Virus record (IMG/VR): IMGVR_UViG_3300044971_000587
Span: 1 to 42,423 of that record
Source of the DNA: a virus
Length of the DNA: 42,423 nucleotides
Reading direction: 5' to 3' (one strand)
The notes under the pieces: model-generated
What the model saw: only the letters and a program-made list of their open reading frames with translations
Databases searched by the model: none
What the model was told of the DNA's origin: nothing
Part shown: one piece after another, positions 19,831-42,423 of the stretch
How the letters are laid out: each line of letters starts with the position of its first letter
How positions within the stretch are numbered: position 1 is the stretch's first letter
Position numbers and translations under genes: made by a program

Positions 19831-20022
19831 TTATAAGTTTGGGATAGGTACAACTATATCAGAAGACAGTCCGCAGTTAAAGCAATGAGAACCTGGCGCA
19901 TAAAAGTATTGGCTTTTATCAGATGCAAGGATTACCTTATTTTGTTTAAATAAGGGAATCATTTCTTGAGACCAATTACCGTAAATAATTGGCGCTAAGT
20001 CTGCACCGCAGTTTGGACACAT
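19831..20022 (-). CDS. Small zinc-ribbon protein
   Basis: 63 residues with two CxxC knuckles, MCPNCGADLAP at the N-terminus and HCFNCGLSSD near residue 50, which would bind one zinc ion. It is coupled to the preceding gene by a TAATG overlap with an AAGGAG ribosome site. No enzyme motif. Function unknown. Confidence 0.6.
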   Translation of the reverse strand: MCPNCGADLAPIIYGNWSQEMIPLFKQNKVILASDKSQYFYAPGSHCFNCGLSSDIVVPIPNL

Positions 20023-20708
20023 TACCTATACTCCTTTTTATTCCAAAACATAGTTTTATATCTATCAAAAAATTTGCTGTTTAGTTTTGACCTAATACTA
20101 TGTTGTTCTTTAAGTTCTTTGTCAGATCCTAAACTCATATGCCAAGTATCACGCCTGAAGGGAATAACCTGTGCAATAGGTGTTCCTTTTGGAATTAACC
20201 CCTCAAAGTCAGGATCATTCATAATCATAGGGAAATTAATTGGCGCCGTGTAAGTGTCGGTATCCACAATTCCTGGAAGAATGGTAAAAACCGATTCTCT
20301 ATGAAACGGTTGAACAAATAAGGTTGAATATCCTTTAGGTGTTTTAATAGACCAAGGATTCTCCCACTTGGGTACAGGTACATCTTGTCTATTTCGGGCT
20401 GGATGCTCAATGGCTTGTTCTAGAGAATGCAGACTAATTAAATTAAAAGAAGCCCATTCAAAGTAATGATAACCATCTACAAGGCTAACGTAGACATCAG
20501 CGGGTGACGAGATTATATATCCTGCAGTTATAGCATCAAACACTGGCATGCAACGTTTTATCGTTCCCGTTGTACCACCGTTACCATCTGGTTTTTTATT
20601 TTTACCAATGTATGAGTCTGTGTTTGTGTACCATTCAGGTATAAACTTAGATGCGGGTTGTGGGGGATCTATTTCAAAAGGAATAGTGTTGGTAAAAGTA
20701 ATATTCAT
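20022..20708 (-). CDS. Conserved phage protein, DUF6065-like (paralogue A)
   Basis: 228 residues, clearly homologous to the plus-strand gene at 40776. Shared elements in order: K(F/W)IPEWYTNT-type start, the KRCMPVFDAITAGYIISSPAD core (KKCVPLLDSISSGYIIPLWTD in the other), W-x-I-x-TPKGYS, VDTD and GTP(I/M)(A/V)QVIPF(R/K)RD(T/D)W. The ending recalls cupin-like beta folds. It looks like the phage family I know as DUF6065, but I cannot confirm this. Function unknown; a virion or host-surface role is possible here. Confidence 0.55.
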   Translation of the reverse strand: MNITFTNTIPFEIDPPQPASKFIPEWYTNTDSYIGKNKKPDGNGGTTGTIKRCMPVFDAITAGYIISSPADVYVSLVDGYHYFEWASFNLISLHSLEQAIEHPARNRQDVPVPKWENPWSIKTPKGYSTLFVQPFHRESVFTILPGIVDTDTYTAPINFPMIMNDPDFEGLIPKGTPIAQVIPFRRDTWHMSLGSDKELKEQHSIRSKLNSKFFDRYKTMFWNKKEYR

Positions 20709-26663: not shown

Positions 26664-26732
26664 TCTATTTATTTAGGCGGGATATAAGTTAAGCCGAAAA
26701 TAGAGATATCAAACCATCATAAGACATAATAC

Positions 26733-27410: not shown

Positions 27411-27518
27411 TTACTTTTTAAAGTACCAAAATATTATTGCTACCCCCGACAAAATTGCAAAAATTAACAAACCTCTATCCGAATGATCATATGGATCTGT
27501 GTGAACTAAATAATTCAT
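27411..27518 (-). CDS. 35-residue single-pass membrane micro-protein
   Basis: A polar, acidic N-terminus (MNYLVHTDPYDHSDRG) is followed by one hydrophobic segment (LLIFAILSGVAIIFWYF) and KK at the end. It is the last of four overlapping micro-genes; its ATG shares a base with the upstream stop (TAATG) and GAGGA lies upstream. Its stop codon touches the stop of the convergent 26814 gene. Function unknown. Confidence 0.6.
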   Translation of the reverse strand: MNYLVHTDPYDHSDRGLLIFAILSGVAIIFWYFKK

Positions 27519-27634
27519 TATTCCTCAAATGAGGTTTGGGATTGTAGTAAGTCATTTACTGTGGTTTGACAATTACAATCACAAGGTTTGTTTATAATAG
27601 GAATATCTTTTGGTTTGTCTATGTTAGATTCCAT
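27518..27634 (-). CDS. 38-residue micro-protein with CDCNC motif
   Basis: MESNIDKPKDIPIINKPCDC and 18 more residues, including the cysteine cluster CDCNC that may bind metal. GGAGGATC gives a strong ribosome site. It overlaps the upstream gene by 11 nt and the downstream gene by 1 nt. No family recognised. Confidence 0.55.
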   Translation of the reverse strand: MESNIDKPKDIPIINKPCDCNCQTTVNDLLQSQTSFEE

Positions 27635-28987: not shown

Positions 28988-29050
28988 TTATCCACAGGGG
29001 TTATCCACAGACACTTTTATACTGGTGAGTATACTGCTGAGTTATCCACA
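28988..29050 (+). promoter_or_regulatory. Three DnaA boxes (TTATCCACA)
   Basis: Exact TTATCCACA at 28988-28996, 29001-29009 and 29042-29050, all in one orientation. This is the consensus bacterial DnaA box. AT-rich sequence follows. Candidate replication origin or DnaA-controlled promoter region. Confidence 0.7.
29020..29031. repeat. TACTGGTGAGTA element
   Basis: Member of the TACTGGxxAGTA family (29020, 29089, 29925, 30776), an imperfect palindrome near early promoters. Confidence 0.4.
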
Positions 29051-29791: not shown

Positions 29792-29812
29792 TTATCCACA
29801 GGTTTATCCACA
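29792..29812 (+). promoter_or_regulatory. Pair of DnaA boxes
   Basis: TTATCCACA at 29792-29800 and 29804-29812, 12 bp apart, same orientation. The second overlaps a palindrome CATGATACGTATCACA (29811-29826) that is itself CRP-like. Confidence 0.6.
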
Positions 29813-35762: not shown

Positions 35763-35791
35763 TTGACATTGTCAGCCATGAGTGCTAAAAT
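35763..35791 (+). promoter_or_regulatory. Promoter TTGACA-17-TAAAAT with TGTCAG
   Basis: Perfect -35; TGTCAG (35770-35775) lies in the spacer 10 nt before TAAAAT (35786-35791). Confidence 0.7.
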
Positions 35792-35817
35792 TAATTAAAA
35801 CAACCGAAAGGATAAAA

Positions 35818-36840
35818 ATGGCTCATGATTTAGAATCACAAAATGGTGTAGCAAGTTTTGCATCATTCCGTGAACCTGCTTGGCATGGTTTAGGTACTGT
35901 GTTTACAGATGAAAAAACAACTAGCGAAATGCTAGAGACTGCTAACCTTAATAATTGGAATGTTCGTTTAGAGGAATTAGAAATTCCATCTGCGCTAACA
36001 TCTGATAAGAATTACCAATATGTAGTGCGTACAAACCCTACTGATAAATCTCAAACTGATGTTTTGGGAATTGTTGGTGAGCGTTATGTGCCATTGCAAA
36101 ATGAGGAACTATTCTCATTTGGTGATAACATTCTTGATGGCGGTGGACGTTGGGAGACTGCTGGCTCAATTCGTGGTGGTCGTGTAGTATTTGGCTCACT
36201 AGCATTAGAGCGTGAAACAATTCTTGACCCTAATGGTGTTGCAGATAAGGTAAAGACTTATTTGCTTATTAACACATCACACGATGGCTCAATCGCTATT
36301 CAAGCAAGCATAACACCTGTTCGTGTTGTGTGTGCTAATACTCTTAACCTTGCTCTTGGTGGCGTAGGTCGCAAAAAGAATAAGGGTATCAAGCAATCTT
36401 TCAAGATTCGCCACACGCAAACTGCCAATGGTAAGGTGCAAGTTGCTCGTGAGACTTTAGGTCTTGCTAATGCGTACATGGATGAATTTGATATCATGGC
36501 TAAGGCAATGATTGAAAAGACTGTTGATGCTAAAATGTTTAACGACATTATTCTTGCTGCTTATCCTAAGCCAGAAAAAGATGCTAAGGGTGCTGTTAAA
36601 AAATGGGAAAATAAAGTTGATACCATTAATGACATCTACACTGGCGAATTTAATGGCATGATTGCTGGTAGTGCGTGGGGTGCGTTCAATGCATTAACTG
36701 AGCGTCTTGATTGGTACCGTTCTGCTCGTGGTGGTAATAACGAAAGTTTATTAGCATCAGCAAGTGGTTTTGATCCATCAATCAATGCAGAAAAAAATCG
36801 TCTGCTAAAAGTTGTACAAAATGTTATGCAACTAGCATAA
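35818..36840 (+). CDS. DUF932 phage/plasmid protein (TIGR03299-like)
   Basis: 340 residues from ATG 35818 (GAAAGG upstream); the longer frame from 35782 crosses the -10 box. FREPAWHGLGTVFTDEKTTS at the start, VGERYVPLQNEELFSFGDNI, and RVVCANTLNLALGG are the characteristic blocks of the DUF932 family, widespread in phages and plasmids. The family has no settled biochemical function. A basic block (GVGRKKNKGIKQSFKIRHTQ) follows. An RNA hairpin and tRNA-Asp lie directly downstream. Confidence 0.88.
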   Translation: MAHDLESQNGVASFASFREPAWHGLGTVFTDEKTTSEMLETANLNNWNVRLEELEIPSALTSDKNYQYVVRTNPTDKSQTDVLGIVGERYVPLQNEELFSFGDNILDGGGRWETAGSIRGGRVVFGSLALERETILDPNGVADKVKTYLLINTSHDGSIAIQASITPVRVVCANTLNLALGGVGRKKNKGIKQSFKIRHTQTANGKVQVARETLGLANAYMDEFDIMAKAMIEKTVDAKMFNDIILAAYPKPEKDAKGAVKKWENKVDTINDIYTGEFNGMIAGSAWGAFNALTERLDWYRSARGGNNESLLASASGFDPSINAEKNRLLKVVQNVMQLA

Positions 36841-36880: not shown

Positions 36881-36954
36881 GGTCTGGTAGATCAATTGGT
36901 TAGATCGTTACCCTGTCACGGTAAAGGTTGCGGGTTCAAGTCCCGTCCAGATCG
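36881..36954 (+). tRNA. tRNA-Asp (GTC)
   Basis: A complete cloverleaf: acceptor stem GGTCTGG / CCAGATC, D-arm GATC...GATC, anticodon stem TTACC / GGTAA with loop CTGTCAC (anticodon GTC), T-arm GCGGG-TTCAAGT-CCCGT, discriminator G, CCA not encoded. It reads GAC/GAU codons and may support the Asp-rich early proteins. Confidence 0.95.
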
Positions 36955-36972
36955 CAAGCGGGGTCGGGTTTT

Positions 36973-39480: not shown

Positions 39481-39489
39481 TACAATAAG

Positions 39490-39533
39490 GAGGGCGTAAC
39501 TTTGTGGTGGGGTTGCGCCCTCTTTCTTTTTTT
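39490..39533 (+). terminator. Strong rho-independent terminator
   Basis: GAGGGCGTAAC (39490-39500) pairs over 11 positions (one G-T) with GTTGCGCCCTC (39512-39522), followed by TTTCTTTTTTT. Its right arm supplies TTGCGC, the -35 of the next promoter. Confidence 0.92.
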
Positions 39534-40034: not shown

Positions 40035-40534
40035 CGCTGGCGGGTCGGGTAATATTAGGACAAAGTGGACATCCCAAACCTTAAAATCTTATTACGATAG
40101 ATCATTTTTTTTCCCAGATCCATAGCCCGACTACCAAACCTCATTTACGAAAAAAACATTAAGAACCCAATTCAAAAAATCCCAGAAAGTTTGACAAACC
40201 TCCAAACCTTTATATCCTAAAAACCTATTACGAAGGTTTGAAATTTTTTCCAGATTCATAACAAACCTTTATATCTAACAAACCTTCCTATCAGGAATCT
40301 CTTGTCTCTTATACTAGTGATATGTTGTATATCTTTTTATCCCCGCCTTTTTGCAGCCCCGCCTTGCCGCTGAATTACAGTATTATTAAACATTATGGGG
40401 CGGGGAAATAAATTAAAGAATAATACAAACTTTTACCATAGTTATCAAACCTTTCTAGATTTTTTCCTGGTGTTTTATAACTTTTTGTTATATTTTCTGG
40501 GCATTTTTATGGGGGGTTTTTAGGCTATAAAGGT
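40035..40534. repeat. Non-coding region with CAAACC repeat array
   Basis: Half a kilobase without a credible gene. CAAACC occurs at 40075, 40135 and 40195 (exactly 60 bp apart), 40203, 40262, 40279 and 40446, and GGTTTG at 40235; two copies extend to CAAACCTTTATATC. CCCCGCC (40341, 40357) can pair with GGCGGGG (within 40397-40405). Candidate origin with iterons or a repressor-binding array. Confidence 0.55.
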
Positions 40535-40563
40535 TTGACAAACCATGGTTTTGGGTATATAAT
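40532..40563 (+). promoter_or_regulatory. Consensus promoter TTGACA-17-TATAAT under a GGTTTG/CAAACC dyad
   Basis: Both hexamers are perfect and the spacing is optimal, the strongest promoter in the window. GGTTTG-A-CAAACC (40532-40544) overlaps the -35 box, as an operator would. Three GGTTTG copies lie downstream at 40589, 40598 and 40613. No convincing gene starts here. Confidence 0.75.
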
Positions 40564-40727
40564 GCATACCAGATATGCGGGATAGAAAGGTTTGGGAGGT
40601 TTGGGATAGGGAGGTTTGGCCGCCAGGGGATTACGAAGCCCCCTATAAAAGCGCTCAATCACCCACTATGCTCCACTTTGCTCCACCAAGACCACATCTA
40701 AAAAATATCAGTAAGATTTATTTTGTA

Positions 40728-40756
40728 TTGACTAAGGAATTAACGAATGCTATACT
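40728..40756 (+). promoter_or_regulatory. Promoter TTGACT-17-TATACT
   Basis: Lies 20 nt before the DUF6065-like gene; the leader contains its AGGTGG ribosome site. Confidence 0.65.
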
Positions 40757-40775
40757 TGTATAGTTAGGTGGGTAA

Positions 40776-41498
40776 ATGTCAAAAAATATAAACTTTAGGG
40801 CTAGAAGTAAGACTGAGTTTGACGTACAACTTAAGCCATATCCTGCAGTAAAACAACTTCCTAAGTGGTTTACTAATTCTGAACCTTATGCAAATTTGCC
40901 TGGGTATCCACAAGATGGGAAACTTCATTTTAGAAACAGAACTGCCAACGCAACATACAAAAAATGTGTTCCATTATTAGATAGCATAAGTTCTGGATAC
41001 ATTATCCCTTTATGGACAGATGTTATGGTTGAACAAGGTAATGGGTATCCTGATATATATTGGAAGACTTTACAGGATGTTTTTACATTACATGGTCAGT
41101 CATCAAGGGAGATTCCAGCACCAATAGGATATGATCAGGTAGTATATAAATATCTTAATTGTTGGATACCACAAACCCCCAAAGGCTATTCATGTTTAAT
41201 AACTTCTCCATTTGGATACAACGATCTTGCATTTAAAGCAATTACAGCAGTTGTAGATACAGATAGTTCAACTCTTGAGTTGGTCTTTCCAATGTGGGTT
41301 AAAACTGGTTTTGAAGGCATCGTTGAAAAGGGCACTCCAATGGTACAAATTATTCCTTTTAAGCGAGATGATTGGGATTCTACTTTTGACTATTATGAAG
41401 ATGGTGAATACAATAATGTAATTCAAGAAAAAAACTTTAATAGCACAATGGTAGGTCATTACTTAAAAAACCATCACTCTAAGAAAAAATTTAAATAA
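40776..41498 (+). CDS. Conserved phage protein, DUF6065-like (paralogue B)
   Basis: 240 residues, homologous to the minus-strand 20022 gene through its whole length: FDVQLKPYPAVKQLPKWFTN, KKCVPLLDSISSGYIIPLWT, W-x-P-Q-TPKGYSCLITSPFG, VVDTD and KGTPMVQIIPFKRDDW. Paralogues in opposite modules suggest different partners. The conserved core looks like a beta-barrel/cupin-type fold, but no catalytic set is clear. Ribosome site AGGTGGG. Function unknown. Confidence 0.6.
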   Translation: MSKNINFRARSKTEFDVQLKPYPAVKQLPKWFTNSEPYANLPGYPQDGKLHFRNRTANATYKKCVPLLDSISSGYIIPLWTDVMVEQGNGYPDIYWKTLQDVFTLHGQSSREIPAPIGYDQVVYKYLNCWIPQTPKGYSCLITSPFGYNDLAFKAITAVVDTDSSTLELVFPMWVKTGFEGIVEKGTPMVQIIPFKRDDWDSTFDYYEDGEYNNVIQEKNFNSTMVGHYLKNHHSKKKFK

Positions 41499-41677
41499 TC
41501 GCAGGGTATCAAACCATCTCTCTGGCTCCATATTGTCCATATCAAACCAGTGTTATTGGACACATTGGTCAAACCTTTGTATCTGGGATATGGGGGATAT
41601 CTGGGATACATGGTTTGTTATTACACTAGGGGTATTACGATACTCTTTACATTCCCGCCGATTTATGGAACAATAGG
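41499..41677. repeat. Spacer with CAAACC and ATCTGGGATA repeats
   Basis: CAAACC at 41510, 41543 and 41570, GGTTTG at 41612, and a direct repeat ATCTGGGATA (41581-41590 and 41599-41608). No gene seen. Confidence 0.4.
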
Positions 41678-41680
41678 TTG

Positions 41681-42127
41681 ATGAGACATAAAACAGAGCC
41701 ATTCCATGGTACTCGTTCTGGGTATGACTGGCATAGGCGAGATATGAAAGAAGATCCCTGTCTGTCCTGCCAAGAGGCAGAAAGATCCTATTGGAAAAAC
41801 CAAAGAGTCATTCGTAAAGATAAAATAAATGCATTACGAAAAGAGTGGAGATTTCGCACACCTAATGCTCGTAGACATTTTCGTAGAAATAATACAGAAC
41901 CAGGAAATTACTCTGAAGCACAAGTAATTGCAGTATATGGTAATAATTGCCATATATGTCAAACCTCTATAGACTTATCCGCTCCAAGAAAAGTAGGTCA
42001 AATTGGATGGGAAAAAGGTTTGCACATAGACCATGTTTATCCTTTATCTAGGGGTGGTTTGGATACCTTAGAAAATGTTAGGCCTTCTCACGGTAAGTGT
42101 AATGTTATTAAGTGGGCTACTATTTAA
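41681..42127 (+). CDS. HNH endonuclease
   Basis: 148 residues from ATG 41681 (a TTG lies one codon upstream). A first Cys pair (CLSC near 27-30) and a basic helix (RKDKINALRKEWRFRTPNAR) precede the HNH core: NCHIC, then LHIDHVYPLSRGG with the DH dyad, LENVRPSHGKCN as the N and second zinc part. It would nick or cut DNA with a metal ion. It may be a homing enzyme or serve packaging or recombination. The start lies 6 nt after a weak -10 (AACAAT). Confidence 0.88.
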   Translation: MRHKTEPFHGTRSGYDWHRRDMKEDPCLSCQEAERSYWKNQRVIRKDKINALRKEWRFRTPNARRHFRRNNTEPGNYSEAQVIAVYGNNCHICQTSIDLSAPRKVGQIGWEKGLHIDHVYPLSRGGLDTLENVRPSHGKCNVIKWATI

Positions 42128-42159
42128 CTTCCCCGCAGATTTAGGATACTCACCGTTAG

Positions 42160-42174
42160 TGCCCTTTTAGGGCA
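42160..42174 (+). repeat. Small hairpin after HNH gene
   Basis: TGCCC-TTTTA-GGGCA, 33 nt after the stop codon and without a T-run. May be a weak 3-prime stem. Confidence 0.35.
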
Positions 42175-42204
42175 TAAGAAGGTTTGATAGTTCTATTTTG
42201 CGCC

Positions 42205-42233
42205 TTGCCTTTACCGCCAAACTTTGATACAAT
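42205..42233 (+). promoter_or_regulatory. Leaderless-type promoter TTGCCT-17-TACAAT
   Basis: TACAAT (42228-42233) lies exactly 6 nt before the ATG at 42240. Confidence 0.6.
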
Positions 42234-42239
42234 AAGTAT

Positions 42240-42423
42240 ATGTGGTGGTCATGGGTATTAGCGGTTATCGGTGTTGCAGGCATATATTTTGTCGGACGAA
42301 AAGATAAATGGGGATGGTTTGTTTTATTATTTAATGAATGCTTATGGATAGCCTATGCAATAATAACAAACCAATATGGTTTTATATTTTCCGCCCTTGC
42401 CTATGCAGTAGTTTACATTAGGT
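42240..42423 (+). CDS. Membrane protein, N-terminal part (runs off right edge)
   Basis: 61 residues are present (MWWSWVLAVIGVAGIYFVGR and onward): membrane segments at about 4-18, 24-42 and 47-60 with a KDKWGW turn between the first two. This W-S-W...G-R-x-x-W-G-W...Y-A pattern is common in small three-helix membrane proteins of actinophages. Function unknown. Start is leaderless. Confidence 0.65.
   Translation, partial: MWWSWVLAVIGVAGIYFVGRKDKWGWFVLLFNECLWIAYAIITNQYGFIFSALAYAVVYIR

Follow-up and report, generated by a model that had tools for sequence, protein, structure and literature searches.

What is the role of a six-base word, CAAACC (GGTTTG on the other strand), that clusters in the non-coding DNA of a freshwater phage? 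We address this question in the 42,423-base IMG/VR record IMGVR_UViG_3300044971_000587 (37% G+C), hereafter the window, which derives from a lake virus that infects bacteria and that has dozens of relatives with a comparable array. The array is real, conserved, and regulatory in appearance. We consider it somewhat probable that CAAACC is the operator half-site of a putative regulator of early promoters, embedded in an origin-like control region of lytic actinophages.

The window is a piece of a phage of approximately 112 to 119 kb that is apparently lytic. Leftward late genes occupy approximately 0.3 to 26.4 kb and include the major head protein, portal, tail fibres, and ribonucleotide reductase; from 26.8 kb on, small genes run rightward. 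Relatives were recognized through a DUF932 gene, which recurs at 85% to 91% identity in 80 IMG/VR loci (the best 80 of 336 stretches) on contigs of up to 119 kb. The closest cultured phages are the Streptomyces BE phages of the Stanwilliamsviridae (54% identity in the DUF932 gene and 46% in the portal). These two genes are held in common, and the gene order around the terminal region is identical. No DNA-level match was found among cultured phages, so the relation to Stanwilliamsviridae lies above the genus level. The group looks lytic, because neither an integrase nor an HTH_3 domain was found in eight relatives of 111 to 119 kb and the conserved core described below has no exact match in bacterial genomes, a search that yielded no host either.

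The surroundings of the array have features of their own. A strong terminator-like hairpin (39487–39525, plus strand; 18 pairs followed by CTTTTTTT) lies approximately 0.5 kb ahead of it. To the right of the core is a variable cargo spot (40760–42423 in the window; L004 to L080 among the relatives), where gene content differs from phage to phage and includes HNH endonucleases, a sulfotransferase-like protein, and small zinc-ribbon-like proteins. The window also encodes two phrog_7084 proteins in one phage, at 20022–20708 (minus strand) and 40776–41498 (plus strand), the latter directly downstream of the control region.

Table. Positions in the window of the array, its satellites, predicted promoters, and core elements.
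Feature	Position	Strand	Remarks
DUF932 gene	35782–36840		phrog_1221, Pfam DUF932; marker gene for relatives
tRNA-Asp gene	36881–36955	+	directly past DUF932 gene
Main CAAACC/GGTTTG array	40075–40618	both	13 sites
Array sites, CAAACC on plus strand	40075, 40135, 40195, 40203, 40262, 40279, 40446, 40539	+
Array sites, CAAACC on minus strand	40235, 40532, 40589, 40598, 40613	-
Dyad GGTTTG-A-CAAACC	40532–40544		13 bp, two half-sites
Satellite cluster	41510–41640		intergenic; CAAACC at 41510, 41543, 41570 (+) and 41612 (-); TTACGA at 41635 (+)
Lone CAAACC site	42181–42186	-	intergenic
Second, weaker patch	27468–27617		near gene-direction switch; sites 27468 (+) and 27533, 27563, 27585, 27612 (-)
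Strongest predicted promoter, TTGACA-17-TATAAT	40535–40563	+	12/12; -35 within dyad; counterparts in relatives
Predicted leftward promoter, GGTTTGATA-17-TATTAT	40420–40448	-	half-site overlaps -35
Weaker promoter match, TTGACA-16-TATCCT	40191–40218	+	carries sites 40195 and 40203
Promoter match, TTGACT-17-TATACT	40728–40756	+	directly before next gene, where relatives have DnaA boxes
Leftward promoter match, TAGACA-16-TATTAT	27621–27594	-	in weaker patch; -35 reads GACAAACC
TTACGA core copy 1	40092–40097	+	followed by TTTTTCCCAG
TTACGA core copy 2	40145–40150	+
TTACGA core copy 3	40228–40233	+	followed by TTTTTTCCAG
TTACGA core copy 4	40631–40636	+	opens conserved core module
Conserved core module	40598–40745	+	last TTACGA, CTCCAC repeats, ATCAGTAAGATTTAT; nhmmer E = 1.5e-34
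10-bp repeats CCCAC / CTCCAC / CTCCAC	40661–40686	+
ATCAGTAAGATTTA box	40707–40720	+	highly conserved

The word is not scattered by chance. The window holds 71 copies against 24.4 ± 4.6 in dinucleotide shuffles, and 0 of 100 shuffles reach 71. A preliminary description of this DNA, made from the letters, had counted about 12 copies between 40075 and 40618, had listed further sites up to 42182, and had pointed to a further dense patch at 26710 and 27460–27620; the main array proves to have 13 sites, the further sites are all present (the last at 42181), and the patch corresponds to a site at 26710 and to the five sites of the weaker patch. It had also allowed that the word might be equally dense throughout the genome or that close relatives might lack the array. 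The density is unequal: in complete-like relatives the word occurs approximately 0.7 to 1 times per kb, and, in the five whose sequence extends to the array, it rises to a single peak of 8 to 17 per kb at the corresponding position (G007 stops short of it). Relatives do possess the array, which is kept in place in 65 of the 80 loci, themselves picked by the DUF932 gene 3 to 4 kb away. Across these 65 array regions, defined by at least 7 copies in 600 bp, CAAACC is the top-enriched 6-mer (8-fold, 941 copies); its presence in all 65 follows by construction from that definition, and the place 3 to 4 kb after the DUF932 gene played no part in the selection. When IMG/VR was scanned with a 25-base core pattern that made no use of CAAACC, the array and the oriented element described below were again found in most of 80 loci. 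An estimate of intergenic enrichment of CAAACC by simple ORF calling was set aside as unreliable, because spurious ORFs fill the array.

The arrangement of the sites is irregular. The 60-bp spacing in the preliminary description stands for the first three sites (40075, 40135, and 40195); beyond them there is no period, with successive spacings of 8, 32, 27, 17, 167, 86, 7, 50, 9, and 15. A 60-bp tandem repeat was thus rejected, since only these three sites are so spaced and the 60-bp stretches do not align with one another; the sole unit that Tandem Repeats Finder detects is one of 17 bp in two copies. Between same-strand sites of relatives, spacings close to 8, 16, and 32 are the most frequent. 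Sites occur on both strands (522 versus 383), pointing rightward (>) in the left part of the arrays and leftward (<) in the right part. The dyad, with an A or T centre, occurs in approximately 24 of the 80 relative loci, and, among inverted pairs of this kind, a spacing of GGTTTG-N-CAAACC is the most frequent (14 of 41).

Evidence on function comes from the promoters that the array contains. The preliminary description had placed the dyad on the -35 box of the strongest promoter, and there it lies: TTGACA at 40535–40540 is followed after 17 bp by TATAAT at 40558–40563, and no other perfect promoter match was found in the scan of 25 to 42.4 kb. Near-consensus sigma-70 promoters stand in the control region both in tandem and divergently; most point rightward and some leftward. 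With near-consensus defined as at most 1 mismatch over both hexamers together, we counted 100 such promoters in 50 kb of arrays and 151 in 724 kb elsewhere, a density approximately 10 times higher in arrays. A CAAACC site falls on 87 of the 100 array promoters, whereas 43-bp pieces drawn at random from the same arrays carry one in 42% of cases; outside arrays, it falls on 11 of 151 promoters, with 5.6% for random pieces. GGTTTGA lies on the -35 box in 48 of 126 promoters, an overlap that is in part mechanical because GGTTTGA and TTGACA have TTGA in common, and most of the remaining promoters carry the site in the spacer. The sequence GGTTTGACA serves also as a -35 box, and a typical array promoter reads AAGGTTTGACA-N17-TATAAT, its spacer containing a further GGTTTG; promoters of this kind face either way. 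Many half-sites fall outside any recognizable promoter. As a separate observation, the arrays of L004, L026, L045, and L177 contain a small reading frame (MGRDHF.../MSPRHL.../MGRSHF...) with a promoter carrying GGTTTGTCAAACC; a subset of the relatives has kept the frame, which the window lacks.

The array is 1 of several parts of the control region. Running through it is an oriented element, ATTACGA-N~12-TTTTCCC (the TTACGA copies of the Table), which was found 402 times in the forward and 0 times in the reverse orientation in 84 distinct regions; selection of these regions required one forward copy near the core, which explains at most 84 of the 402. The first region set had given 292 versus 1. 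At the genome rate of 0.14 to 0.26 per kb per strand, approximately 15 copies are expected on each strand of the 84 regions, so the reverse orientation is even depleted. The conserved core follows to the right, with 10-bp CTCCAC repeats, ATCAGTAAGATTTAT, and DnaA boxes TGTGGATAA. These boxes occur at the core in 37 of 47 loci, usually as two approximately 12 bp apart, and are missing from it in 10 of 47, the window included. The nhmmer core model gives one strong match per genome reaching the core (E from 1e-20 to 1e-44), most of the matched sequences, or near relatives of them, having been in the model. Elsewhere in the window, perfect DnaA boxes TTATCCACA occur in pairs at 28988–29050 and 29792–29812; many relatives have counterparts of these, approximately 10 kb upstream of the array.

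These features make a replication origin a plausible, and the simplest, common function for the region as a whole. A turn in GC skew was not seen at the array, and no initiator was recognized among the neighboring genes in PHROGs and Pfam searches. The origin-like parts are the ATTACGA element, the CTCCAC repeats, ATCAGTAAGATT, and the DnaA boxes, rather than CAAACC. The preliminary description was right on a non-chance array and on an operator at the -35 box, and saw only one of several parts.

The Streptomyces phages share some of these parts. In BE phages (Samisti12, Karimac, Riptide, Daubenski, and Tomas), the terminal non-coding region likewise holds one-orientation TTACGA elements and DnaA boxes at the same place past the DUF932 gene; the element occurs 3 to 6 times in the first 720 bp of these five, oriented relative to that gene as here. 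Samisti12 has a direct terminal repeat of 10,666 of 133,710 bp (8.0%) with the DUF932 gene inside it, 1.2 kb from the left end. The start of the repeat separates the TTACGA copies from the DnaA boxes, and Karimac is alike: in both phages, the boxes lie 50 to 95 bp outside the repeat border and the TTACGA elements just inside. In Comrade and Blueeyedbeauty, one-orientation TTACGA elements and DnaA boxes are together in a 1.5-kb non-coding gap, and the terminal repeat, of approximately 0.7 to 0.8 kb, is approximately 6 to 7 kb from that gap; to call the region a packaging end is therefore too simple. The Streptomyces phages differ from the window in having neither the CAAACC array nor a recognizable CTCCAC/ATCAGTAAGATT core (best nhmmer E = 0.54).

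Within the freshwater group, the word itself changes from lineage to lineage. The array of L177 is built of CAAACA (18 copies) at the same promoter positions, that of L055 mostly of CAAACA, and that of L164 of CAAAT-type words, again at the same promoter positions; no comparable word is prominent in L146 and L196. The oriented element and the ATCAGTAAGATT-DnaA part persist in all five. Judged by sequence comparison, the control region appears to combine a fast-changing operator word with a slow origin-like core. A word that changes while the rest stays constant is the pattern expected of a regulator and its site changing together.

Which protein might read the word? The repressor or initiator gene to be sought near 42.4 kb was not found. 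In eight relatives, Lsr2, HTH_3, and HTH_17 domains (over the cut-off) were not found, and no phage sigma factor region 4 scored over the cut-off. All eight complete-like relatives (G001 to G008) carry one WhiB-type gene of 93 to 100 codons, 13 to 21 kb beyond the array. Its product is a candidate, since the -35 box is a place where proteins of the Wbl family can work together with region 4 of SigA (PMC6282962). As a direct reader of the word it was rejected: in 12 genomes, its C-terminal sequence does not track CAAACC versus CAAACA.

We propose that the half-sites would be bound by a DNA-binding regulator and that the array forms the operator part of the non-coding control region. As half-sites overlap -35 boxes and spacers, binding would keep RNA polymerase away from, or (less likely) bring it to, promoters that are predicted to be early and active. 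Early transcription may thereby be timed on both sides of the region. The region probably doubles as a replication origin; the switch would therefore also govern transcription through the origin.

Operators are preferred over iterons mainly because the word changes while the origin-like core stays. That the sites are iterons, at which a phage replication initiator and DnaA would open an origin in the AT-rich part of the core, is unlikely though worth weighing. DnaA boxes do adjoin the core in most loci, the core is unique in each genome, several spacings are near 16 and 32, and a repeat-rich non-coding gap is paired with DnaA boxes family-wide. However, the irregular spacing on both strands is unlike that of iterons in register; the sites prefer promoters, with satellite clusters at distances of 1 kb and 13 kb; and the word is lost or replaced with the origin-like core kept, and is absent from the Streptomyces phage region. 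Of the two readings offered in the preliminary description, iterons and stoperators, what stands is operator-like use, with an origin plausible for the whole region through parts other than the word; genome-wide stoperators find no support. Sites of the L5 type, asymmetric and genome-wide and stopping transcription in the lysogen, are highly improbable here: the site overlaps the -35 box and the motif varies by lineage as in cluster A phages (PMC6550527), but there is one local peak over a low background, in both orientations, outside arrays the site falls on only the 11 of 151 promoters given above, neither an integrase nor an HTH_3 repressor was found in eight relatives, and bacterial genomes contain no exact core match.

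Two further explanations concern DNA entry and RNA. A long direct terminal repeat could have its inner border here, with the region acting as a T5-like injection stop or as a packaging border, a reading that we regard as doubtful. Under it, DNA entry would pause at the repeats and DnaA boxes once the leading part of the genome is in, and would continue when pre-early genes have been made. The description of the T5 stop signal (repeats, inverted repeats, and DnaA boxes; PMC13250531) fits the geometry of the BE phages: in Samisti12 and Karimac the repeat begins with the TTACGA copies on its inner side and the DnaA boxes outside it and, in Samisti12, spans 8.0% of the genome. Against it, Comrade and Blueeyedbeauty have the region without the border. 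The long direct terminal repeat is shown for BE phages only; metagenome contigs, from which the freshwater phages are known, collapse such repeats, and contig ends near the array have no sequence in common. A physical genome end at the array was rejected on the last ground (ends of ten contigs compared), and a packaging terminus as a general role because the short terminal repeat of the Loccivirinae is 6 to 7 kb off. Very unlikely, finally, is action as RNA, with GGTTTG and ATTACGA as leader elements that bind a protein or modify RNA polymerase in an antitermination-like manner: half-sites of the right part do fall in the predicted leader and TTACGA is strictly oriented, but CAAACC lies on both strands and on both sides of promoters, and there is no Rfam match.

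Under the operator reading, the control region belongs with repeat-rich phage regions that carry operators; it is comparable to the dyads of cluster O and the stoperators of cluster A and matches neither. In cluster O mycobacteriophages (Corndog and relatives), the repeats are invariant 17-bp palindromes spread genome-wide, approximately one third of them in genes (PMC4351075). What they have in common with the present sites is a short, often repeated dyad in an actinophage that is not temperate and has sigma-A-like promoters (PMC4351075); the present sites, however, form one dense patch of mostly 6-bp half-sites and only sometimes dyads. Cluster A (L5) stoperators also lie over the -35 box and shift in motif between related phages (PMC6550527, PMC9283540); in contrast, the present sites are neither oriented with transcription nor genome-wide, and a search of eight relatives turned up no integrase or HTH_3 repressor. 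The T5 stop signal, as described in PMC13250531, resembles the BE relatives in combining repeats, inverted repeats, and DnaA boxes, which in those relatives sit where a terminal repeat of approximately 8% of the genome has its border; the Loccivirinae differ, since their region lies away from the terminal repeat.

Hundreds of freshwater phage contigs have this gene neighborhood in common (336 stretches encode the marker gene), and its control region now has coordinates for promoters, operator word, directional element, and core, which makes it precise and testable. A word that changes with the rest kept suggests a switch with a putative controlling protein. The exchange of operator words on a constant core is a natural experiment, in which the regulator may be findable by covariation. 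We also entertain, as a rather improbable extension, a family-wide module of lytic actinophages. In it, the strictly directional ATTACGA...TTTTCCC element and the DnaA boxes would mark where replication starts and where the terminal segment that enters first has its border; at this one place, a fast-changing operator word would thus gate the entry of the genome, the firing of the origin, and the early promoters. Since the element is shared with cultivable Streptomyces BE phages, the ideas of an origin and of two-step entry are testable in the laboratory.
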